From contig LS997563.1 in assembly GCA_000469685.2 (NCBI GenBank), forward strand, positions 391,869-455,868: DNA of 64,000 bases, given 5' to 3'. The DNA is from Haemonchus contortus (lineage: Eukaryota > Nematoda > Chromadorea > Rhabditida > Trichostrongylidae). The position numbers and the translations under genes were made by a program. The notes under the pieces are model-generated. The model was not told the origin of the DNA. It did not search any database and saw only the letters and a list, made by a program, of their open reading frames with translations. Shown here piece by piece: positions 25,890-64,000 of this stretch. The first letter of the stretch is position 1. Each line of letters opens with the position of its first letter.

Positions 25890-26385
25890 CCTCCTATTGA
25901 TTTCGATTTCCAGGTCCGCGGTCAGTAGTTGTGGATTTTCGCTCAAACATTTATTTCGCGGAAATCCCGCCCACTGTGAGCGGAGTTTGGCCTCACTACC
26001 CACCATAAGTGTTCCCATACTGCCTCCTATACCTCTGCCGCGTTTGAACGCCTAAGGCCAAATTGATAATTTTGCGAAAATCCCGCCCCTGTGGACGCAG
26101 TCCGGTCCTGTCACCCACCATAAATGTCCCCATCCTGCCTCCAATTATCCTGCTGAATTGAGACGCTCTAGGTCCAGGGGAACAGGAGTAATGAATTTCC
26201 GTTCAAGAACTTGTTTCGCGCAAACCCCGCCTCCTGTGGGCGGAGTCCGATTCTGCCACCCGCCGTAGGTATTCCCATCCTGCTCTCTGTGCTGCTACCA
26301 AATTTGAACGTTCTAGGTCGAAGGGGACAGGAGTTATAAATTTCCGTGCAAGCAGACAGACAGACCGACAGACGCGATCGCTTTA
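25890..26385 (-). mobile_element. Helitron-like family A copy, head-to-head with family B
   Basis: Three to four units of about 145 bp, readable on the minus strand: each has an ATAACTCCTGTCCC-like start, GACCTAGAACGTTCAAATTT, GGATGGGAA, and CTCCGCCCACAGG with a GC-rich core. The (GTCT)n subterminal run is at 26350-26375. The very 5' tip is replaced by the start of the plus-strand element at 26386. Confidence 0.7.
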
Positions 26386-28733
26386 TCCTCACTATATATA
26401 AATCACAAATTTAGTGTGTCTGTTTGTTTGTCTGTCTGTTTGTTTGTCCGCCACAAAATTCGGTATCGTCTGAAGATGGGGACAAGTTCGGGATAGGTGG
26501 AGCTTGAGACAAAATTGACAGAGCCCATATGAGCTCTGCGGGGTCACGCCCACGGGGGCGGGGCAAATGCCGGAATGGGCGGTGCCATGAACCAAACATC
26601 TTATTTTTGCTTCGAAAAAGTCCAGACTTTGGGTAGAAATGTTCTAAGGTGAGGATTGGGTCAACAAACCAGACGGAGGAAACCCACATGCTGTGGGCGG
26701 AGCTTTCTCAGAATGGGTGGTACTTTTCAGATGTATCCATAACTCGATTCAGTTAAGGCGCAGACGCCAGGAAAAAAAGATAGAAAGAGTGAGTAGGGCA
26801 TCATGCGTGCTGGGCATGCTTAAGCTCCGCGAAGTCCCACCCACGATGAGCGGGGCGTGCGTTGAGATAAAAGCCTTTTTTCAAAAATGAATGTAACCTT
26901 GCTTGGAAACATTCTAGAATGCGGGAAAAAGTGGTTGGAGGTAATGGAACAAATGTGGCCAAACCCTCGAAGTGTGTGTGGTTGGCACTAGTGTGCGGGG
27001 CTTAGACAAAAATTTATAACTCTACTCAGAAACGTTTTGGGTTGCAGCAGAAAGGAGTTAAAGGCACAGTTCACGTTAATTTTGGGGTATCCGGTTTTTT
27101 GGCGAAATTTGACAAAAAATGTTAGATACGGCTTACAATAGTACAATGGTAAAAGAGAAAACGCGAAAAAAGATGAATATATAGAAATAGCGAGCCACAA
27201 AAAACAAAACAAGGGAAAAGGGGGGTCGACGGGCTAAATGGCGAAAAAACGGCGATAAGGGATTTTTCGGGCGAGTCAGACAAACGGTACGCAGTGTCTG
27301 CCATTGCACACACCACACCAACAGCTGATTTTGGCTTATTCATTAAAACTAATTCTCCTACCGCTAGTAATCTGATTTATTATGCAAAATCAGTTTCGAC
27401 CTTTTAGCGATGGCTGAGAAAAATTAATTAGAATAGAAAAGCGTAGAATATAGTCGAATACTAGAAAAACAGCCTAATAGTAGTCCCAATACGAGGCGGT
27501 CGACCAGCTGACCGTCTGTGGGCAATTTGCCAACCAGCCTATCGATTTTTCACTAATGTTGCTCCAATGCGAAAGTGGTGAAGGACAATTTGAGCTCGTA
27601 GTGAACCTAGCAAGGGGCGGAGGCCTCTCGTCCTCCACTGTTCCTGCCCTTATTGTGCCTATCGAGACTGTTTTCCGACCTCATTCCTGCACATATGGTA
27701 TCAGAGGGGGCTTCGAATTCAAACCATAAGCAAATCTCCGAGACCTTTTTTCGTGAACTGTGCCTTTAAGGTTTAAAAAGAACGAATGTGGTCAATGCCC
27801 AAAAGTAGGCGGGGCTTAGACAAAAATTATAAATCTGCTCAGAAACGTTCTGGGATGCGGCAAAAGAGGTGTCAAGGTGTAAAAGAACAAATGTGGTCAA
27901 ATCCCAGAAGTGGGCGTGTTTGCAGTGAAGTGGGCGGGGCTCAGATCAAAAATTGATAACTATTTAGGCACATTCTGGGATACGGGAAAAAGTGGTAAGA
28001 TGTAGTAGAACAAATGTGGTCAAATCCTAGAAGTGGGCGGAGTTGGTATTGGAGTGGGCGGGGCTTACATTAAAATTATTGAGTCTCTTCTGATGCCTTT
28101 TAGAGCGCGGGAAAAGGTGTCAGGAGGTTATAAAAGAATGTGGTTCAAAGTCTGAAGTGGGTGGGCTTTGGAAAGAGGGGGGGGGAAGGACTGAGGTCAA
28201 AAATTTATACATCTGTCCTTCACACTAACCCTGACCACATAGGTGTACAACTAGGTGACACTACGAAACTCTTCCAAAAATTAGGCTGTAAACTTTTAAA
28301 ATGGTTCCATGGTTTTACACACAGTAGTCCCTTCTACGCAAGAGCGAATGCTCTACATGATGTTCATACCTCATAAAATGAATTCTGCAATAACTCCGGC
28401 CACACAGGTGCATACCCGTAGAGAAGTGTAAATCCCAACAGCTACCCAAAAGAGCTGTCCTTTCAAAGTTGGTGTTCACCCACACACAGCCCCAAACTAC
28501 ACAGAGTTTCTTCGAATACATGGACTGCAGAGGTATTTGATTTGGATACATCGGAGTACTCTTCATAGCCACACTCAGCCCCCATTTCACATCCCAAAAA
28601 AATGATGGCCGCTACAGAAGTGTCAGGGAAGAGGTTTTGATGATAAAGGCTTATAATGAAAATCAGAACTTACGTGGCTCCATCCCTTATGGCTAGAGCC
28701 CCAGCGCACGCAATAGCGTGCGTAGCCTCCCGG
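26386..28733 (+). mobile_element. Helitron-like family B copy 1
   Basis: 2,348 bp (about 1.64 kb without the MITE inside). The 5' end follows an A: TCCTCACTATATATAAATCA, then a TCTG/TTTG run. Next come unique blocks shared with 53570-53895, then about five units of roughly 125 bp with AACAAATGTGGTCAAA and GGGCGGGGCT. Then a segment follows that is nearly identical to 52680-53180 inverted. The 3' end has hairpin GCACGC-AATA-GCGTGC (28706-28721), 8 nt, CCGG, then T. These are Helitron end rules: TC start, hairpin, CTRR-like end, insertion between A and T. No Rep/helicase gene is present. Confidence 0.75.
27058..27769. mobile_element. MITE of the TTAAAGGC family inside a Helitron-like unit
   Basis: 712 bp, ends TTAAAGGCACAGTTCACG and its reverse complement. 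It interrupts one of the 125-bp units. Comparison with neighbouring units (..GGTGTCAAGGTGTAAAAG..) shows that one TTAA is the original target and the second is the duplication. This suits piggyBac-type (TTAA) or PIF/Harbinger-type (TAA/TTA) mobilisation. Confidence 0.88.
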
Positions 28734-32911: not shown

Positions 32912-33481
32912 GACGTTGGTTACCGTCCATGGGCTTCTATAAATTTCTGAGCACTTTTTCCCGCGTTCTGAAAGTTTTAAGTAGATTTATGAGTTTTCGA
33001 TCATAGCCCTACCCACCTTAATGCAAACCCCACCCGCATTGCATTAGAGATTCGACCAAATCTCTTTTGTAGCCTCTGACTACATTAATACCGCTCTAAA
33101 TCTAGAACGCTTTTGAGAAGAATTTTACACTTTTTTCAAAAACTAGCTTCCATTTGAATATACGTCCCGACCATAGTAGCCGGAGCTTCGCTAGGTTTAG
33201 GCATGCCCAGCATGCCTTGCCCCCTCTTTCTATTTTTTTTTCTCGCACTCAGACTTTGTTGGGGCGAAGTTATGAGTTTATATGAGAATTACCCCACTTC
33301 GAGCTTGCTAAATACATGGCTGGTGGGGTTCTTCACATGATTTGTTGGCCACTGGCCTCTAGGCCCGCCCGGTCCAGCGCTTGTCCTGCCCATTGTTAGC
33401 AGAGCTCCGCAAGTCTGATATGTGCTCTATTGATCTAGTCCTAAGCTCCACCTATCTAGGTTCTGACTCGACAGGTGTTAA

Positions 33482-34685
33482 TACATATACATACATACAT
33501 ACATACATACATACATACATACATACATACATACATACATACATACATACATACATACATACATACATACATACATACATACATACATACATACATACAT
33601 ACATACATACATACATACATACATACATACATACATACATACATACATACATACATACATACATACATACATACATACATACATACATACATACATACAT
33701 ACATACATACATACATACATACATACATACATACATACATACATACATACATACATACATACATACATACATACATACATACATACATACATACATACAT
33801 ACATACATACATACATACATACATACATACATACATACATACATACATACATACATACATACATACATACATACATACATACATACATACATACATACAT
33901 ACATACATACATACATACATACATACATACATACATACATACATACATACATACATACATACATACATACATACATACATACATACATACATACATACAT
34001 ACATACATACATACATACATACATACATACATACATACATACATACATACATACATACATACATACATACATACATACATACATACATACATACATACAT
34101 ACATACATACATACATACATACATACATACATACATACATACATACATACATACATACATACATACATACATACATACATACATACATACATACATACAT
34201 ACATACATACATACATACATACATACATACATACATACATACATACATACATACATACATACATACATACATACATACATACATACATACATACATACAT
34301 ACATACATACATACATACATACATACATACATACATACATACATACATACATACATACATACATACATACATACATACATACATACATACATACATACAT
34401 ACATACATACATACATACATACATACATACATACATACATACATACATACATACATACATACATACATACATACATACATACATACATACATACATACAT
34501 ACATACATACATACATACATACATACATACATACATACATACATACATACATACATACATACATACATACATACATACATACATACATACATACATACAT
34601 ACATACATACATACATACATACATACATACATACATACATACATACATACATACATACATACATACATACATACATACATACATA
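33482..34685. repeat. (ACAT)n microsatellite, perfect block
   Basis: About 1.2 kb of uninterrupted tetranucleotide repeat (about 300 units) with no substitution. Long open frames here encode only YIHT repeats on the plus strand and MYVC repeats on the minus strand, and are not genes. Confidence 0.98.
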
Positions 34686-35270
34686 ATATAATACATACAT
34701 ACTACATACATACAATACATTACATACATACATACTACATACATACATACAATACATCCATACATACATACAGTATCATACATACATACATACATACATA
34801 AACATACATACATACATCCATACATAACATTACCATACCATACAATACCATTACAAAATACATACATACCATGGCCGGGACAATACATACATACATACAT
34901 ACATACAACATACATACATACATACATACATACATACAGTACAATACTACATACATACATACATACATACAACATACATACATAACATACATACATACAT
35001 TACATACAATACCCTACATTACATACATACATAACATAACATACATACATACATACATACATAAACATACATAACATACATACATACATACAACATACAT
35101 ACATACATACATACATACATACATACATACATACATACATACATACATACATACATACATACATACATACATACATACATACATACATACATACATACAT
35201 ACATACATACATACATACATACATACATACATACATACATACATCATACATACATACATACATACATACA

Positions 35271-35301
<31 letters not shown>

Positions 35302-35600
35302 CATACATACATACATACATACATACATACATACATACATACATACATACATCACATACATACATACATACATACATACATACATACATACATCATACAT
35401 ACATACATACTACATACATACATACATACATACATACATACATACATACATACATACATACATACATACATACATACATACATACATACATACATACATA
35501 CATACATACATACATACATACATACATACATCACATACATACATACATACATACATACATACAATACATACATACCATACATTACCATACATACATAACA

Positions 35601-35631
<31 letters not shown>

Positions 35632-36022
35632 CATACATACATACATACATACATACATACACTACATACATACATACATACCATAACATACATACATACA
35701 TACATACATACATACATAAACATACATACATACATACATACATACATACATACATACATACATACATACATACATACATACATACATACATACATACATA
35801 CATACATACATACATACATACATACATACATACATACATACATACATACATACATACATACATACATACATACATACATACATACATACATACATACATA
35901 CATACATACATACATACATACATACATACATACATACATACATACATACATACATACATACATACATACATACATACATACATACATACATACATGCATA
36001 CATGCATACATACATACATACA

Positions 36023-36050
<28 letters not shown>
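34686..36050. repeat. (ACAT)n microsatellite, interrupted block
   Basis: The same repeat with many one-base gains or losses between about 34686 and 35100 and scattered ones to 35720, then regular to about 36050 with two GCAT variants near 35996-36004. The mix of perfect and indel-dense stretches may be biological or a sequencing-consensus effect. Confidence 0.95.
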
Positions 36051-36057
<7 letters not shown>

Positions 36058-36205
36058 CTACATATCTACATATCTACATATCTACATATCTACATATCTA
36101 CATATCTACATATCTACATATCTACATATCTACATATCTACATATCTACATATCTACATACATACATACATATCTACATATCTACATATCTACATACATA
36201 TATAC
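36050..36205. repeat. (ATCTACAT)n octamer block at the array edge
   Basis: About 16 copies of an 8-bp unit formed from two tetramers, one changed. It lies between the ACAT array and the TTTG-rich 5' region of the Helitron-like element. Confidence 0.95.
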
Positions 36206-36272
36206 ATGAAAATAAACAAACAAACATACAAGCAAACAGACACACCAATTCGTGGATTATATATTGTAAGGA

Positions 36273-46368: not shown

Positions 46369-46772
46369 TACTACAATAGGAGAAAAACATCGCCTATCAC
46401 TCAGCGATCAACTGATTGCGTTCTGAACGCGTGGGTCCTGGGGCGAATATTGCAATCGGTATCGCCTCGGCACTCCTCTGACACGCCATCGGTCGAGAGG
46501 CCAGGAATCCGGTCCGGTGACGGGGCTCTCACTATGCCCTAAGGGTTGAGTTTTTGGTCTTTGTCTCCAGGACGAGCCTCTGAGATGCCAAACAATGTAG
46601 TAGATTTGTCTACCTGTTCCATATGTTCGGAGTTACACTTACGAATGCGGCGTCCTATACTTTTCAGCCACCCTGTGCATATACATACTACACACATACA
46701 TACATACATACATACATGCTATATATATATATATGTAGATATACTATATATACTATACTATATATACATGTA
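46369..46772. repeat. Unassigned sequence ending in simple repeats
   Basis: 46369-46670 is unassigned and GC-richer than its surroundings. 46676-46771 is a mix of CATA, TA and ACTATATA simple repeats ending at the TA of the next element. Confidence 0.5.
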
Positions 46773-47274
46773 CAGTAGCGCTTAAAAGTATTCGGCCAAA
46801 CGCTATCACGCTTTTCCGTTCATAACTTTTTTCTTACTAGAGCGAATCGCGCGAAATTTTGATATGTTCAACTGAAGCATCTTTCACACCATCCAACTCT
46901 GTTTGACGGCAGAGCAGCAAAATCCACATAACTGAGAGCGGCTCGTTTTTTTTGCGGTAGCAGTCCTCGCTCAAGCAAAATGAGTCACGTCTGCAGTTAT
47001 TCGCGCTTTATGTGCGTTGTTCTATTCGGCATTAGCGCTCGTACCCTCAAGACATGGCAAAAAGGGAAGAAATCCAATGTCTGTATTTCCAGTACATTTC
47101 GAGTTCAAGCCCTTCGGGATATCTGGAACACGATCAGATTGCAGGTTAATAGTGGTAAATATTCACAACACACCCTTGCTACACATAATGAAATTTGGCA
47201 TCACTACATCAAGTAGGAAAGAGTTACGACTGAAGAGGAAAAAGCATTCCGCCGAATACTTTTTAGCGTTACTG
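46773..47274. mobile_element. Non-autonomous Tc1/mariner-type element, 502 bp
   Basis: Ends CAGTAGCGCTTAAAAGTATT and (reverse complement of the right end) CAGTAACGCTAAAAAGTATT, with TA at 46771-46772 and 47275-47276. The right-hand arm continues with CGGC as in the left. The interior contains a helix-turn-helix-like phrase (GISARTLKTWQKGKK) but no catalytic domain. Confidence 0.88.
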
Positions 47275-47306
47275 TATACATTTACATACATACATACATA
47301 CATGTA

Positions 47307-47400
47307 TCTATAAAAAACGCGTTAAGTAAGTCTGTTGGTTCATCTGTGTGTATGTGTCTGTTGGTTTGTCTCTATGCACAGTAGCGGCGAAATTCTCCAG
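47307..47400 (+). mobile_element. Helitron-like family A 5' end
   Basis: TCTATAAAAAACGCGTTAAG then TAAGTCTGTTGG and TG-rich sequence, matching the 5' ends at 45486 and 48964. It directly follows a short CATA run. The body is not recognised further. Confidence 0.5.
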
Positions 47401-48963: not shown

Positions 48964-50600
48964 TCCTACTTTATGATTCGCTAAGTGTGTCTGTTGGTGT
49001 GTCGGTGTGTGTGTGTGTCGGTGTGTGTGTTTGACCGGAAATTCATAACTCCTGTCCCTGTGAACCTAGAAAGCTCAAATTTGGTAGGAGTACGGGGGGC
49101 AGAAAGGGAATACTTATGGCAGGTGGCAGAGCCGAACTCCGCCCACAGGGGGCAGGGCGTGCGCGATAGAAATTTTGAGCCGGAAACTCATAATTCCTGC
49201 TCCCCTGGACCCAGAGCGTTCAAACTTGGTAAGAGTAAAGGAAATAGGATGGGAACAATTATGGCAGGTAGCAGGACCGGACTCCAATTGCAAGGGGCGG
49301 GGCGTGCGCGATAGAAATTTTATATCGCAAATTCATAACTCTTATCCCAGTGGACCCAAAGCGTTCAAAATCGGTGGGAGCACACGAGGGGAGCATGGAA
49401 ACACTTATAGCAGGTAGTAGGAGCGGACTCCGCCTGCAAGGGGCGGGGCGCGCGCGATAGAAATTTTACATCGCAAATTCATAACTCCTGTCCTAGTGGA
49501 CCCAAAGCGTTCAAAATAGGTAAGAGTACAGGTGGCGGCATGGGAACACTCATGGCAGTTGACAAGGTCGAGCTCCGCCCACAGTGGGCGGGGCGTGCGC
49601 GTTAGAAATTTTAGGTTGCAAATTCATAACTCATAATAATAATGACAAGCGAGCAAGCGATGCAATCTCCTTCGCGTCAACACTGGAACCTTTTCAATGA
49701 CGGCAATGTAGGATGTGTCGTGGTCGTAGGTACTCTGTGACAGGAACTGATAACAACTGATAAGAACTGATAAGAGGCTTTAGAGAGCGAAAGGGGGGGG
49801 CGCGCGATTCACGCGCCAATATAATGAGGTCATCGCGCACGCAGCACCGTTTCAGTACCTTCCTGTTGAGATGGACCAAATAAATTTGCAGTAGTTCACG
49901 GCTTCACCATGAATAGAGCAAACCTCTTTACTATGGCAAAAAAAAGCCCCTTCGAGACTGAGAATTCACCTCATAGGTCAACAATTTACTAGTCAAACGT
50001 TCAAAATAAGAATAACTTTAATTTTTTCGATCCTAGTAAACGCAATCCATCTGTAAACGTGCATAGTTGGTCATTTCTTTACTTATTCTACTTATAAGTT
50101 CTTATAACTTCCGTTATGATGGTAAGAATGATGTTTTAGCGTGTTTTGTCCGATGACCTCATTATATCGGCGCGTGAATCGCACCACACCCAGCGAAAGG
50201 GTATTCATCATCAAATACTGAATCTTTAAAATGTTTCATTCAATAAGATGGGTGAATGCAACAATGGCGACCGATCAAAGACATTTCACCAGAACGAAAT
50301 GAGAATATTGTTCATTTCTTGCTATCAAAGTACGACCGTTACGTAGTAAGCTTTGTGGCACAATGAAGTACCACGATTCCTTTTTTTTTTGTGACATATC
50401 ATTTGTGACTAAACTCATGTGACCGCTAATGATTTGGGATTCCCAATTAATGAAAATCCGTGGGAAAAATGTTCTATTGATAACGACGTCTGTGATAGGG
50501 GTTACTATCCATTTCTGGGTACCATTCAAGACATTGGCTTTCAAACAGTTAAGCCATCAATGTGACACAATTTCGGGATTAAGAGCAATCAATCGAGACT
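48964..50600 (+). mobile_element. Helitron-like family A copy with four clear tandem units
   Basis: The 5' end after an A: TCCTACTTTATGATTCGC, TAAGTGTGTCTGTTGG and a GTGTGT run. Units start near 49045, 49188, 49333, 49481 and 49626 (period 143-148 bp), each with CATAACTCCTGTCC, GTTCAAA, GGTAGGAGTAC, a GGGAACACT block and GGGGCGGGGCGTGCGCGATA. A non-unit segment, 50300-50490, matches 45955-46140. The 3' end was not found; its border is approximate. Confidence 0.65.
49804..50182. mobile_element. MITE-like inverted-repeat element
   Basis: 32-bp arms at 49804-49835 and 50151-50182 (31 of 32 matching; GCGATTCACGCGCC at the outside, GAGGTCATCG at the inside) enclose 315 bp. It lies within the family A Helitron-like repeat. 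No target duplication could be fixed and no coding sequence is seen. Confidence 0.75.
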
Positions 50601-52660: not shown

Positions 52661-53911
52661 ATCCGCAATAATAATATTACCAGACGGCTACGCACGCTAT
52701 TGCGTGCGCTGGGGCTCTAGCCATAAGGGATGGAGCCACGTAAGTTCTGATTTTCATTATAAGCCTTTATCATCAAAACCTCTTCCCTGACACTTCTGTG
52801 GCGGCCATCATTTTTTTGGGATGTGAAATGGGGGCTGAGTGTGGCTATGAAGAGTACTCCGATGTGTACAAATCAAATACCTCTGCAGTCCATGTAGTCG
52901 AAGAAACCCTGTGCAGTTCGGGCTGTGTGGGGCCATAAACACTAACTTTGAGAGAACGTACCCTTGAGTATTTGTAAGTATCTACACATCTTTACAGGGT
53001 ACCCACCTGTGTGGCCGCGGTTATGGCAGAATTTATTTTATGAGGTCTAAAGTTATTGTAGAGTATTTGCTCTTGTGTAGAAGGGACTACCGTGTGTGGG
53101 ACCATGGACACTAACTTCTAGAGAATTTTTAGTCTGATTTTGAAAGCGTCCAGTGGTATCCCCTAGTTGTACACCTATGTGTACACCTACATCTTACCAC
53201 TTTCTTTCCCCAACCCAAAACGTTTCTGAACAGAGGTATAAATTTTTGATCTAAGCTCCGCCCACTATAATCCAACCCCGCCCACTTCGAGGGTTCAGCC
53301 ACATTTGTTCTTTCACACATTGGCACCTTTTTGCCGCAACTTAGAAAGCTTCTGAATAGGGATATAAGTTTTTGTCTAAGCCCGCCCACTTTAGTGCTAA
53401 CCCAGCCCACTTCTGCGATTTGACTACATTTGTTCTTTTACACATTACCACCTTTTTGCCGCATCCCAGAACGTTTCTGAATAGAGCTATAAATTTTTGA
53501 TCTAAGCCCCGCCCACTTCGAGAATTTGACCACATTTGTTCCATTACTTCTGACCACTTCTTTCCCGCAATCTAGAACGTTTCCGAACAAAGTGACACTC
53601 ATTTTTGAAAAGTAGCTTCCACCCTAACGCACGCCCCGCCCACCGTGGGCGGGGCTTCGCTAAGCTTACGCATGCCCAGCACGCAAAAGGCCCTGCTCAC
53701 TCTTTTTATTTTTTCCTGGCCTCTGCGCCTTAATTGAATCGAGTTACGAATGAGTCTGAAAAGTACCGCCCATTTTGAGAAAGCTCCGCCCACAGCATGT
53801 GGGTCTCCAACGTCGGGTTTCTTGACCCAATCCCCACCTTTGAACATTTTTCCCCGGTGTCTGGACTTTTTCGAAGCAAAAATAAGACGTACATTTCGTA
53901 CATAAAATACA

Positions 53912-55171
53912 TTCATACATTCATACATTCATACATACATACATACATACATACATACATACATACATACATACATACATACATACATACATACATACAT
54001 ACATACATACATACATACATACATACATACATACATACATACATACATACATACATACATACATACATACATACATACATACATACATACATACATACAT
54101 ACATACATACATACATACATACATACATACATACATACATACATACATACATACATACATACATACATACATACATACATACATACATACATACATACAT
54201 ACATACATACATACATAACATACATACATACATACATACATACATACATACATACATACATACATACATACATACATACATACATACATACATACATACA
54301 TACATACATACATACATACATACATACATACAACATACATACATACATACATACATACATACATACATACATACATACATACATACATACATACATACAT
54401 ACATACATACATTACATACATACATACATACATACAATACATACATACATACATACATACATACATACATACATACATACATACATACATACATACATAC
54501 ATACATACATACATACATACATACATACATACATACATACATACATACATACATACATACATACATACATACATACATACATACATACATACATACATAC
54601 ATACATACATACATACATACATACATACATACATACATACATACATACATACATACATACATACATACATACATACATACATACATACATACATACATAC
54701 ATACATACATACATACATACATACATACATACATACATACATACATACATACATACATACATACATACATACATACATACATACATACATACATACATAC
54801 ATACATACATACATACATACATACATACATACATACATACATACATACATACATACATACATACATACATACATACATACATACATACATACATACATAC
54901 ATACATACATACATACATACATACATACATACATACATACATACATACATACATACATACATACATACATACATACATACATACATACATACATACATAC
55001 ATACATACATACATACATACATACATACATACATACATACATACATACATACATACATACATACATACATACATACATACATACAACATACATACATACA
55101 TACATACATACATACATACATACATACATACATACATACATACATACATACATACATACATACATACATAC
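53912..55171. repeat. (ACAT)n microsatellite
   Basis: 1.26 kb of tetranucleotide repeat with a handful of one-base gains or losses, entered through three octamer copies at 53890-53929. Confidence 0.98.
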
Positions 55172-58100
55172 ATTCATACATTCATACATACATACATTCA
55201 TACATTCATAATTCATACATTCATACATTCATACATTCATACATTCATACATTCATACATTCATACATTCATACATTCATACATTCATACATTCATACAT
55301 TCATACATTCATACCATTCATACATTCATACATTCATACATTCATACATTCATACATTCATACATTCATACATTCATACATTCATACATTCATACATTCA
55401 TACATTCATACATTCATACATTCATACATTCATACATTCATACATTCATACATTCATACATTCATACATTCATACATTCATACATTCATACATTCATACA
55501 TTCATACATTCATACATTCATACATTCATACATTCATACATTCATAACATTCATACATTCATACATTCTACATTCATACATTCATACATTCATACATTCA
55601 TACATTCATACATTCAATACATTCATACATTCATACATTCATACATTCATACATTCATACATTCATACATTCATACATTCATACATTCATACATTCATAC
55701 ATTCATACATTCATACATTCATACATTCATACATTCATACATTCATACATTCATACATTCATACATTCATACATTCATACATTCATACATTCATACATTC
55801 ATACATTCATACATATACATTCATACATTCATACATTCTACATTCTACATTCATACATTCATACATTCATACATTCATACATTCATACATTCATACATTC
55901 ATACATTCATACATTCATACATTCATAACATTCATACATTCATACATTCATACATTCATACATTCATACATTCATACATTCATACATTCATACATTCATA
56001 CATTCATACATTCATACATTCATACATTCATACATTCATACATTCATACATTCATACATTCATACATTCATACATTCATACATTCATACATTCATACATT
56101 CATACATTCATACATTCATACATTCATACATTCATACATTCATACATTCATACATTCATACATTCATACATTCATACATTCATACATTCATACATTCATA
56201 CATTCATACATTCATACATTCATACATTCATACATTCATACATTCATACATTCATACATTCATACATTCATACATTCATACATTCATACATTCATACATT
56301 CATACATTCATACATTCATACATTCATACATTCATACATTCATACATTCATACATTCATACATTCATACATTCATACATTCATACATTCATACATTCATA
56401 CATTCATACATTCATACATTCATACATTCATACATTCATACATTCATACATTCATACATTCATACATTCATACATTCATACATTCATACATTCATACATT
56501 CATACATTCATACATTCATACATTCATACATTCATACATTCATACATTCATACATTCATACATTCATACATTCATACATTCATACATTCATACATTCATA
56601 CATTCATACATTCATACATTCATACATTCATACATTCATACATTCATACATTCATACATTCATACATTCATACATTCATACATTCATACATTCATACATT
56701 CATACATTCATACATTCATACATTCATACATTCATACATTCATACATTCATACATTCATACATTCATACATTCATACATTCATACATTCATACATTCATA
56801 CATTCATACATTCATACATTCATACATTCATACATCATACATTCATACATTCATACATTCATACATTCATACATTCATACATTCATACATTCATACATTC
56901 ATACATTCATACATTCATACATTCATACATTCATACATTCATACATTCATACATTCATACATTCATACATTCATACATCATACATTCATACATTCATACA
57001 TTCATACATTCATACATTCATACATTCATACATTCATACATTCATACATTCATACATTCATACATTCATACATTCATACATTCATACATTCATACATTCA
57101 TACATTCATACATTCATACATTCATACATTCCATACATTCATACATTCATACATTCATACATTCATACATTCATACATTCATACATTCATACATTCATAC
57201 ATTCATACATTCATACATTCATACATTCATACATTCATACATTCATACATTCATAATTCATACATTCATACATTCATACATTCATACATTCATACATTCC
57301 ATACATTCATACCATTCATACATTCATACATTCATACATTCATACATTCATACATTCATACATTCATACATTCATACATCATCATTCATACATTCATACA
57401 TTCATACATTCATACATTCATACATTCATACATTCATACATTCATACATTCATACATTCAATACATTCATACATTCATACATTCATACATTCATACATTC
57501 ACATTCATACATTCATACATTCATACATTCATACATTCATACATTCATACATTCATACATTCATACATTCATACATTCATACATTCATACATTCATACAT
57601 TCATACATTCATACATTCATACATTCATACATTCATACATTCATACATTCATACATTCATACATTCATACATTCATACATTCATACATTCATACATTCAT
57701 ACATTCATACATTCATACATTCATACATTCATACATTCATACATTCATACATTCATACATTCATACATTCATACATTCATACATTCATACATTCATACAT
57801 TCATACATTCATACATTCATACATTCATACATTCATACATTCATACATTCATACATTCATACATTCATACATTCATACATTCATACATTCATACATTCAT
57901 ACATTCATACATTCATACATTCATACATTCATACATTCATACATTCATACATTCATACATTCATACATTCATACATTCATACATTCATACATTCATACAT
58001 TCATACATTCATACATTCATACATTCATACATTCATACATTCATACATTCATACATTCATACATTCATACATTCATACATTCATACATTCATAACATTCA

Positions 58101-61100
58101 TACATTCATACATTCATACATTCATACATTCATACATTCATACATTCATACATTCATACATTCATACATTCATACATTCATACATTCATACATTCATACA
58201 TTCATACATTCATACATTCAATACATTCATACATTCATACATTCATACATTCATACATTCATGCATTCCATACATTCATACATTCATACATTCATACATT
58301 CATACATTCATACATTCAACATTCATACATTCATACATTCATACATTCATACATTCATACATTCATACATCAATACATTCATGACATTCATACATTCATA
58401 CATTCATACATTCATACATTCATACATTCATACATTCATACATTCATACATTCATACATTCATACATTCATACATTCATACATTCATACATTCATACATT
58501 CATACATTCATACATATCAATACATTCATACATTCATACATTCATACATTCATACATTCATACATTCATACATTCATACATTCATACATTCATACATTCA
58601 TACATTCATACATTCATACATTCATACATTCATACATTCATACATTCAATACATTATACATTCATACATTCATACATTCATACATTCATACATTCAACAT
58701 TCAATACATTCATACATTCATACATTCATACATTCATACATTCATACATTCATACATTCATACATTCATACATTCATACATTCATACATTTCATACATTC
58801 ATACATTCATACATTCATAATTCAAATTTTCATACATTCATACATTCATCTTCATACATTCATACATTCATACATTCATACATTCATACATTCATACATT
58901 CATACATTCATACATTCCATACATTCATACATTCATACATTCATACATTCATACATTCATACATTCATACATTCATACATCATACATTCATACATTCATA
59001 CATTCATACATTCATACATTCATACATTCATACATTCATACATTCATACATTCATACATTCAATACCATTCATACATTCATACATTCATACATTCATACA
59101 TTCATACATTCATACATTCATACATTCATACATTCATACATTCATACATTCATACATTCATACATTCATACATTCATACATTCATACATTCATACATTCA
59201 TACATTCATACATTCATACATTCATACATTCATACATTCATACATTCATACATTCATACATTCATACATTCATACATTCATACATTCATACATTCATACA
59301 TTCATACATTCATACATTCATACATTCATACATTCATACATTCATACATTCATACATTCATACATTCATACATTCATACATTCATACATTCATACATTCA
59401 TACATTCATACATTCATACATTCATACATTCATACATTCATACATTCATACATTCATACATTCATACATTCATACATTCATACATTCATACATTCATACA
59501 TTCATACATTCATACATTCATACATTCATACATTCATACATTCATACATTCATACATTCATACATTCATACATTCATACATTCATACATTCAACATTCAT
59601 ACATTCATCATTCATACATTCATACATTCATACCATTCATACATTCATACATTCATACATTCATACATTCATACATTCATACATTCATACATTCATACAT
59701 TCATACATTCATACATTCATACATTACATTCATACATTCATACATTCATACATTCATACATTCATACATTCATACATTCATATCATTCATACAATTCATA
59801 CATTCATACATTCATACATTCATACATTCATACATTCATACATTCATACATTCATACATTCATACATTCATACATTCATACATTCATACATTCATACATT
59901 CATACATTCATACATTCATACATTCATACATTCATACATTCAATACATTCATACATTCATACATTCATACATTCATACATTCATACATTCATACATTCAT
60001 ACATTCATACATTCATACATTCATACATTCATACATTCATACATTCATACATTCATACATTCATACATTCATACATTCATACATTCAACATTCATACATT
60101 CATCATTCATACATTCATACATTCATACATTTCATACATTCATACATTTCATACATTCATACATTCATACATTCATACATTCATACATTCATACATTCAT
60201 ACATTCATACATTCATACATTCATACATTCATACATTCATACATTCATACATTCATACATTCATACATTCATACATTCATACATTCATACATTCATACAT
60301 TCATACATTCATACATTCATACATTCATACATTCATACATTCATACATTCATACATTCATACATTCATACATTCATACATTCATACATTCATACATTCAT
60401 ACATTCATACATTCATACATTCATACATTCATACATTCATACATTCATACATTCATACATTCATACATTCATACATTCATACATTCATACATTCATACAT
60501 TCATACATTCATACATTCATACATTCATACATTCATACATTCATACATTCATACATTCATACATTCATACATTCATACATTCATACATTCATACATTCAT
60601 ACATTCATACATTCATACATTCATACATTCATACATTCATACATTCATACATTCATACATTCATACATTCATACATTCATACATTCATACATTCATACAT
60701 TCATACATTCATACATTCATACATTCATACATTCATACATTCATACATTCATACATTCATACATTCATACATTCATACATTCATACATTCATACATTCAT
60801 ACATTCATACATTCATACATTCATACATTCATACATTCATACATTCATACATTCATACATTCATACATTCATACATTCATACATTCATACATTCATACAT
60901 TCATACATTCATACATTCATACATTCATACATTCATACATTCATACATTCATACATTCATACATTCATACATTCATACATTCATACATTCATACATTCAT
61001 ACATTCATACATTCATACATTCATACATTCATACATTCATACATTCATACATTCATACATTCATACATTCATACATTCATACATTCATACATTCATACAT

Positions 61101-64000
61101 TCATACATTCATACATTCATACATTCATACATTCATACATTCATACATTCATACATTCATACATTCATACATTCATACATTCATACATTCATACATTCAT
61201 ACATTCATACATTCATACATTCATACATTCATACATTTCATACATTCATACATTCATACATTCATACATTCATACATTCATACATTCATACATTCATACA
61301 TTCATACATTCATACATTCATACATTCATACATTCATACATTCAATACATTCATACATTCATACATTCATACATTCATACATTCATACATTCATACATTC
61401 ATACATTCATACCATTCATACATTCATACATTCATACATTCATACATTCATACATTCATACATTCATACATTCATACATTCATACATTCATACATTCATA
61501 CATTCATACATTCATACATTCATACATTCATACATTCATACATCATACATTCATACATTCATACATTCATACATTCATACATTCATACATTCATACATTC
61601 ATACATTCATACATTCATACATTCATACATTCATACATTCATACATTCATACATTCATACATTCATACATTCATACATTCATACATTCATACATTCATAC
61701 ATTCATACATTCATACATTCATACATTCATACATTCATACATTCATACATTCATACATTCATACATTCATACATTCATACATTCATACATTCATACATTC
61801 ATACATTCATACATTCATACATTCATACATTCATACATTCATACATTCATACATTCATACATTCATACATTCATACATTCATACATTCATACATTCATAC
61901 ATTCATACATTCATACATTCATACATTCATACATTCATACATTCATACATTCATACATTCATACATTCATACATTCATACATTCATACATTCATACATTC
62001 ATACATTCATACATTCATACATTCATACATTCATACATTCATACATTCATACATTCATACATTCATACATTCATACATTCATACATTCATACATTCATAC
62101 ATTCATACATTCATACATTCATACATTCATACATTCATACATTCATACATTCATACATTCATACATTCATACATTCATACATTCATACATTCATACATTC
62201 ATACATTCCATACATTCATACATTCATACATTCATACCATTCAACATTCATCATTACATTCATACATTCATACATTCATACATTCATACATTCATACATT
62301 CCATACATTCATACATTTCATACATTCCATACATTCATACATTCATACATTCATACCATTCATACATTCATACATTCATACCATTTCATACATTCATACA
62401 TTCATACATTCATACATTCATACATTCCATACATTCATACATTCATACATTCATACATTCCAACATTCATACATTCATACCAAATTCATACATTCATATT
62501 CATATTCATACATTTCATACATTCATACCATTCCATACATTCATACATTCATACATTCATACATTCATACATTCCATTACATTTCATACACTTCATACAT
62601 TCATACATTCATACATTCATACATTCATACATTCATACCATTCATACATCATACATTCATACATTCAATACATTCATACATTCATACATTCATACATTCA
62701 TCATTCTACATTCCATACATTCATACATTCATCATTCATACATTCATACATTCATAACATTCATACATTCATACATTTCATACATTCATACATTCATACA
62801 TTCATACATTCATACATTCATACATTCATACATTCATACATTCATACATTCATACATTCATACATTCATACATTCATACATTCATACATTCATACATTCA
62901 TACATTCATACATTCATACATTCATACATTCATACATTCATACATTCATACATCATTCATACATTCATACATTCATACATTCATACATTCATACATTCAT
63001 ACATTCATACATTCATACATTCATACATTCATACATTCATACATTCATATCATACATTCATACATTCATACATTCATACATTCATACATTCATACATTCA
63101 TACATTCATACATTCATACATTCATACATTCATACATTCATACATTCATACATTCATACATTCATACATTCATACATTCATACATTCATACATTCATACA
63201 TTCATACATTCATACATTCATACATTCATACATTCATACATTCATACATTCATACATTCATACATTCATACATTCATACATTCATACATTCATACATTCA
63301 TACATTCATACATTCATACATTCATACATTCATACATTCATACATTCATACATTTCATACATTCATACCATTCATACATTCATACATTCATACATTCATA
63401 CATTCAATACATTCATACATTCATACATTCATACATTCATACATTCATACATTCATACATTCATACATTCATACATTCATACATTCATACATTCATACAT
63501 TCATACATTCATACATTCATACATTCATACATTCATACATTCATACATTCATACATTCATACATTCATACATTCATACATTCATACATTCAATACATTCA
63601 TACATTCATACATTCATACATTCATACATTCATACATTCATACATTCATACATTCATACATTCATACATTCATACATTCATACATTCATACATTCATACA
63701 TTCATACAATTCATACATTCATAACATTCATACATTCATACATTCATACATTCATACATTCATACATTCATACATTCATACATTCATACATTCATACATT
63801 CATACATTCATACATTCATACATTCATACATTCATACATTCATACATTCATACATTCATACATTCATACATTCATACATTCATACATTCATACATTCATA
63901 CATTCATACATTCATACATTCATACATTCATACATTCATACATTCATACATTCATACATTCATACATTCATACATTCATACATTCATACATTCATACATT
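55172..64000. repeat. (ATTCATAC)n octamer array, more than 8.8 kb
   Basis: More than 1,000 copies of an 8-bp unit running to the window end, with scattered single-base changes and a dense cluster of them at about 62210-62790. The plus-strand open frame of nearly 3,000 codons that spans 53797-62757 is an artefact of the unit length and not a protein. Confidence 0.98.

Follow-up and report, generated by a model that had tools for sequence, protein, structure and literature searches.

The 64,000-bp stretch of the Haemonchus contortus genome analyzed here (the window, C2:391869-455868, from an assembly of 283,439,308 bases in 7 contigs) contains two long tetranucleotide arrays, both lying within Helitron-like elements. 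This arrangement raises the question of how a mobile element and a giant microsatellite came to share one site: the array may be carried by the element to new places, may have attracted it, or may have grown inside it after insertion. An earlier note on this DNA favored the last of these, proposing that the element spreads repeat seeds that later expand.

Helitron Copies and Arrays in the Window

The family-B Helitrons have canonical ends. Their start reads A^TC in all 52 recognisable starts among 60 sampled 5′ ends (8 of the 60 lack a recognisable start), against a background of 18% for A before TC within the window, and the canonical 3′ structure, a hairpin and CTRR followed by T, is present in the examined copies. 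CTGG with T behind it forms the end of three short complete copies (L040, L047, and L055) and of two loci encoding Rep/helicase (RepHel) proteins. A tract of TCTG, TTTG, and TATG units is located about 45 bp inside the 5′ end. In the whole genome 378 occurrences of a 28-base motif of the 5′ end were counted when up to 3 mismatches were allowed, and 209 of an exact 22-mer, while the controls (reversed for the 28-base motif) gave 0 in each case. The contrast between 378 occurrences and none for the reversed control, together with the position of the tract at one fixed site in the copies read, places the association of tract and element above chance. An Rfam scan of the window returned no match.

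The array-free comparator, copy 1 (26386..28733, plus strand), starts with TC at 26386 and comprises a TCTG/TTTG run at about 26413-26448, a 3′ hairpin, and a degenerate CTRR in the form of CCGG. Two Helitron 5′ ends stand head to head at 26386, with copy 1 starting within a reversed family-A 5′ end (window 26200-26400). Another family-A 5′ end, carrying 145-bp repeats, is located on the plus strand at 48966..49635; it has a TC start and a GTGT/GTCK run and is related to the 5′ region of a Helitron elsewhere in the genome that encodes RepHel.

In the copy with its 5′ end at 36272, the array lies directly behind the subterminal run, as the earlier note had described. The family-B 5′ end (36211..36272, minus strand) opens with TC at 36272 in AT-rich sequence, carries its TNTG-type tract at about 36211-36246, and matches the 5′ end of copy 1 over 62 bp. 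Tandem Repeats Finder delimited an ATAC array at 33487-36207 and a second array from 53907 to the window end. The first of these, an ATAC/TATG array on the minus strand (33487..36207), carries a private octamer block, TATGTAGA, at its 5′ side. Behind it follows a Helitron-like body with a putative 3′ end at 32912 (32912..33486, minus strand), which lacks the portion that would come first after the tract and whose positions 33099-33238 partially match 53569-53714.

The second array belongs to the copy ending at 52680, whose body and 3′ end (52680..53890, minus strand) carry a hairpin, CTGG, and a flanking T. The window holds the part of the array at 53907..64000 (minus strand), and the remainder continues to about C2:466188, for a total length of 20,414 bp uninterrupted by N. 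The octamer ATACATTC makes up 18,245 bp of this, with 626 units in one perfect run, and the tetramer 1,824 bp. The prediction that a minus-strand family-B 5′ end would be found beyond position 64000 was borne out, the array being closed by such an end with TC at C2:466222. The 3′ structure and array of this copy were likewise found. The claim that the array begins exactly at the subterminal run of copy 1 was not: the aligned part of copy 1 comes no closer to this run than 26596, about 150 bp past it, which indicates that this copy, too, has lost about 150 bp beside its array.

A short CATA run (47277..47303, plus strand) had been taken as an array against a family-A 5′ end. It lies directly upstream of a Helitron-like 5′ end with TC at 47307, and thus outside the element, so that it was rejected as an internal array and provides no example of growth within an element. 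Between the runs at 46681 and 47280 sits a MITE-like insert (46773..47274) that has inverted ends and is bordered by TA; it lies inside a run extending over 46681-47303.

Short Tracts and Giant Arrays in the Genome

The census was based on the first 60 of the 209 exact 5′ motifs, all on contigs C1-C3, with 500 bp per copy, which allows runs of up to about 95 TATG units to be measured. Because an exact motif was demanded, the sample leans to younger copies. The 60 copies have 56 distinct upstream flanks, with four copies sharing one flank and two sharing another, so a few of them represent duplicated segments rather than separate insertions. The tract occupies one fixed place in all 60, and in the short copies without an insert the element sequence lies directly behind it (50 of 50). 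The median length of the longest pure TATG run is 4.5 units, and most seeds comprise about 1–17 pure units; at least 3 units were found in 48 of the 60 copies, at least 5 in 27, at least 10 in 10, at least 20 in 5, and at least 60 in 3. The expectation that copies of the 5′ end would be accompanied by a tetranucleotide array therefore holds for short tracts, while giant arrays are uncommon. Since runs of at least 20 units occur in only 5 of 60 copies, what the element carries is a seed and not a giant array, and the combination of 48 copies with at least 3 units and 5 with at least 20 is the pattern expected of seeds that sometimes expand. The chance of at least 5 in 60 copies lying next to a giant array is roughly 5e-6, on a guessed assumption that 0.4% of places do so.

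Longer arrays were sought through genome matches to a query that combined array and end, from which 18 loci were taken (plus two stretches after the window). Two of them (L011 and L024) matched the array part only, and the remaining 16 were examined in detail. Their arrays range from 0.3 to 4.0 kb, two of them cut by N, and different arrays hold private variant units. The usual element sequence follows the array in 8 of the 16 (L012, L015, L016, L017, L018, L019, L025, and L027), and the same sequence minus its first stretch in two (L013 and L022). The others have a TA-flanked insert (L021 and L028), N (L023 and L026), or other sequence (L014 and L020) in this position.

Inserts flanked by TA were also present within the TATG tract of 5 of the 60 sampled copies (L034, L035, L053, L067, and L075), where the tract measures only tens of bases; three of these five inserts begin with CAGTAGCGCTCAAAAG. 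With the further cases in a TATG context at L021, L028, and window 46773-47274, TATG seeds appear to serve as landing pads for elements that target TA. A separate observation concerns C1:40905226-40910935, where six identically oriented Helitron 5′ ends, each with a TATG seed, follow one another every 1,136-1,137 bp; this region is a tandem block of a Helitron-containing unit.

RepHel Elements and the GTCY Tract

A Rep/helicase source is present in the genome, which contains 74 matches to Helitron_like_N; the first 11 of these lie in stop-free open frames of at least 1349 aa. Two RepHel loci, on contigs C2 and C5, were examined. The protein piece of the C5 locus combines Helitron_like_N, PIF1, and Pif1 2B domains, while the 5′ part of this locus is rearranged and inverted. 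The C2 element begins with A^TCCTTACTTTATATAAAGCGCTCGC, followed by a (GTCY)n run and then by a stretch related to the window's 145-bp repeats (75.7% against window 49005-49189, over 185 bp). Both loci end with GCGACTGG^T. Family B and the C2 RepHel element have the start TCCTTACTWTATATAA, a tract, and the end CTGG^T in common, and their bodies are unlike. Judged by sequence, the tract is a standard 5′ part of Helitrons in this genome, in the form of (GTCY)n in the RepHel element and of mixed TCTG, TTTG, and TATG units in family B, which is non-autonomous. At L027, and near the end of the C5 RepHel locus (L134), a Helitron is inserted in or right beside the 5′ end and tract of another copy.

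Separate Origins of the Giant Arrays

A tree of the copies was built from as much as 275 bp of sequence surrounding TTTAGAGGTCGGG, which lies behind the tract. Of 77 rows tried, 61 were kept, the 16 others being dropped for want of the TTTAGAGGTCGGG anchor: 9 of the 60 sampled copies, including all 5 census giants, 6 of the 16 loci from the array-plus-end query, and copy 1. The ten giants in the tree accordingly all come from loci found with the array-plus-end query, and no two of their upstream flanks are alike. Rows L053, L013, L022, L025, L044, and L061 are short or long-branched.

The giants are scattered among short copies of several subfamilies, and 10 changes are needed for the 10 giants on the 61-row tree (bootstrap range 10-10); many branches are weak, and the starred branches by themselves force 4 changes. 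Shuffling gave a mean of 9.4 changes, with 500 of 500 shuffles as low as the observed 10, which means that giants do not cluster at all. Ten changes for ten giants point to growth in place rather than travel. Together with the seeds in 48 of the 60 sampled copies, this result supports the core idea of the earlier note, namely that a mobile element spreads repeat seeds which later expand.

The end branches of giants (median 0.060, 9 rows) are longer than those of the short copies (0.023, 48 rows; p 0.007, with 4 long-branch rows left out), and the contrast persists for the 6 giants judged to have the exact 22-mer (p 0.005), although this age result is provisional because the giants were picked by a query containing an array and not as a random sample. 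Among the short copies, a longer end branch goes with fewer pure units (Spearman -0.41, p 0.004). Element sequence adjacent to the array is missing in 2 of the 10 giants of the tree and in both array-bearing copies of the window, compared with none of 50 short copies without an insert (Fisher p 0.025 for 2/10 vs 0/50). The emerging picture is one in which transposition brings a fresh seed, most seeds decay, and some run away.

TATG Arrays Outside Helitrons

Pure TATG runs of at least 176 bp make up at least 0.7 Mb, or about 0.25% of the assembly (177,202 matches at 4-bp steps). The starts of TATG arrays were counted for two selected classes, TTTG and CTATG, and the counts describe these classes rather than all giant TATG arrays. 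TTTG followed by 25 pure units occurs at 42 places, 14 of which coincide with Helitron matches of the array-plus-end search. Inspection of the other 28 by eye assigned 7 to Helitron 5′ ends (one of them, L116, of another subfamily), 10 to starts without a Helitron end, 10 to breaks within arrays, and 1 to a MITE-like end. Thus, 21 of the 31 readable starts of this class are Helitron ends and 10 are without one. For the CTATG class, 11 of 13 places comprised 2 Helitron ends, 2 Helitron-like internal repeats, 2 starts with neither, and 5 breaks within arrays, so that 2 of 6 readable starts lack a Helitron end. The arrays at L123 and L126 begin in Helitron-like internal repeats and not at the 5′ tract, and no Helitron end marks the start of L128, the first array listed on C1. 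Helitrons are seed carriers and not the sole home of giant TATG arrays, whose occurrence without Helitron ends indicates that TATG is prone to growth across the genome at large.

The Helitron context does not appear to add to this tendency. Among 155 runs of at least 4 units behind TTTG, 49 are in the TGTGTCTG context of the Helitron 5′ end, 6 of these being located in one C1 block. Expanded runs account for 6 of the 49 in the Helitron context (at least 23 units) and for 37 of the 106 others (at least 25 units), and this count of TTTG-preceded runs revealed no extra expansion in the Helitron context. The comparison is crude: the 37 include 16 Helitron copies whose tract has another form and at least 10 breaks within arrays.

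Proposed Explanation and Its Alternatives

The explanation that we consider highly probable is that Helitrons carry a short tetranucleotide tract at the 5′ end, that transposition plants it as a seed, and that a minority of seeds expand in place, the Helitron acting as seed carrier. Substitution of TCTG/TTTG to TATG would make the seed unstable. Each transposition plants a fresh short seed at a new place, as the constant tract site and the distinct flanks of the sampled copies show, and a minority expand after insertion to 0.3–20 kb, as is shown by their separate origins on the tree. In the eight giants that were read with this part intact, the element's own sequence still lies directly behind the array. 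Slippage may lengthen the seed first, with break-induced or out-of-register copying of long blocks leading to the kilobase and octamer stages. Variant units inside an array can be re-amplified into private octamer blocks, of which the 18.2 kb of ATACATTC are an example visible in the sequence.

One alternative is that a giant array belongs to a master element and has reached its new sites through transposition. Giants do occur at many places, such as the 16 loci examined, and several of them have the same left tract of TGTC and about 7 TGTT units. Such an origin is very improbable, given that at least 20 pure units occur in only 5 of 60 sampled copies and that the giants are interspersed with short copies from several subfamilies. 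The 10 changes that the tree requires for 10 giants led us to reject transposition as the route by which giant arrays spread. A preference of Helitrons for existing tetranucleotide arrays as targets fits single cases, namely the run outside the 5′ end at 47307, L027 in the tract of another copy, and the C5 RepHel element beside an array-bearing 5′ end. The arrays in question, however, occupy the site of the short tract within the element, with its 5′ end on one side and its body on the other, a layout that insertion into a pre-existing array cannot produce. This preference was therefore rejected as a general cause, and we regard it as extremely unlikely.

Growth could also be tied to the biology of the Helitron itself, through rolling-circle slippage at the 5′ tract or repeated nicking of the 5′ end. 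In the rolling-circle model strand copying starts at the Helitron 5′ end, and the tract lies directly behind this presumed start. The lack of a higher share of expanded runs in the Helitron context by the crude count above, the existence of giants without Helitron ends, and the longer end branches of giants, from which growth looks late, make this connection improbable. The last alternative is that the giant arrays are artefacts of assembly. Their lengths rest on one assembly, N runs follow the arrays at L023, L026, L072, and the C5 RepHel locus, and large chromosome-specific repeats are described as collapsed in the assembly in the available text of PMC7652881. Nonetheless, element sequence was found on the far side of 10 of the 16 arrays (8 intact and 2 with a deletion), the arrays have an internal variant structure, the 20.4-kb array is free of N, and collapse would shorten arrays rather than create them; an artefact is thus very unlikely to account for them.

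Relation to Known Systems and Significance

Mobile elements carrying microsatellites are already known. Work of Wilder and Hollocher in 2001 reportedly concerned elements of the mini-me/DINE-1 type. Lepidopteran elements with hitchhiking (GTCY)n are said to have been treated by Coates in 2010 and 2011, in one case among MITEs and in the other with an insertion disrupting (GAAA)n microsatellites; by these titles, they too are mobile elements with a GTCY microsatellite. In the available text on Drosophila DINE-1/mini-me, these Helentron-associated elements are non-autonomous, with a 3′ hairpin, internal repeats, and a 5′ block containing a GTCY-rich microsatellite that varies in length, and DINE-1 has been proposed as a source of microsatellites (PMC2374699, PMC4067079). 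The H. contortus elements resemble them in that a microsatellite of GTCY type lies close to the 5′ end, taking the form of (GTCY)n at the RepHel loci and of TYTG/TATG in family B. DINE-1 differs in inserting between T and T and in having subterminal inverted repeats, whereas the ends found here are the canonical A^TC...CTGG^T; the T-T insertion of DINE-1/HINE was not found, A preceding the start in 52 of 52 recognisable starts. The DINE-1 microsatellites are, moreover, described as short in the parts of these papers available (PMC2374699, PMC4067079), in contrast to the kilobase arrays of H. contortus. The Cg_HINE elements of the Pacific oyster likewise have a 5′ microsatellite, mostly of 4-base units (GTCY, GTCC, GTCK), followed by tandem repeats, but it is short and eroding in all examined elements, and giant expansion is not described in the available text (PMC7492417).

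A mobile element leaving a seed that later expands in place is also seen with Alu. The GAA repeat of Friedreich ataxia is an expansion that began in an Alu element. The (GAA)n-Alu link appears in a table of the available text of PMC6947457. Alu belongs to another class of elements, and in the single genome of H. contortus numerous separate expansions have taken place at the same position of one family.

Microsatellites of H. contortus or its relatives were reportedly linked to a repeat by Hoekstra in 1997 and Johnson in 2006. The HcRep repeat of H. contortus comprises (GTCT)14 upstream of seven copies of 111-182 bp according to the text available (Laing 2011, PMC3156134), and is treated also in the accessible portion of a later report (Laing 2013, PMC4054779). 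The available main text of these two papers makes no mention of Helitrons. Direct repeats behind a GTCT run are also the arrangement of the RepHel-coding element and of the family-A end at 48966-49635, the likeness being one of unit length and run. By these two features, HcRep and its microsatellite are probably the 5′ part of such Helitrons. In the available portions of the open-licence literature on Helitrons and DINE-1, GTCY, H. contortus microsatellites, and HcRep, no account of giant arrays or of a tie between HcRep and Helitrons was found. What is new here is how far the arrays have grown, that such growth arose repeatedly at a single site in one family, and the link to a canonical nematode Helitron and probably to HcRep.

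A GTCY-type tract is common to flies, moths, and oysters, and now to a nematode. It could conceivably be a conserved working part of rolling-circle ends, perhaps for Rep binding or strand opening, a reading that we offer tentatively and regard as rather doubtful. An element unable to lose its tract would have to plant an expandable seed with each jump, and many giant arrays as well as the HcRep-linked microsatellites would then be by-products of Helitrons.

Family B provides a natural series of hundreds of near-identical seeds that come with known positions, relative ages, and matching flanks from the element; a small number of them are enlarged hundreds- to thousand-fold. The timing and cause of a microsatellite's switch to runaway growth thereby become testable within one genome. 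The findings also suggest a reason for the repeat-linked microsatellites of H. contortus and its relatives, as described in the available text of Laing 2011 (PMC3156134), and serve as a warning that such microsatellite markers sit in multicopy mobile DNA.
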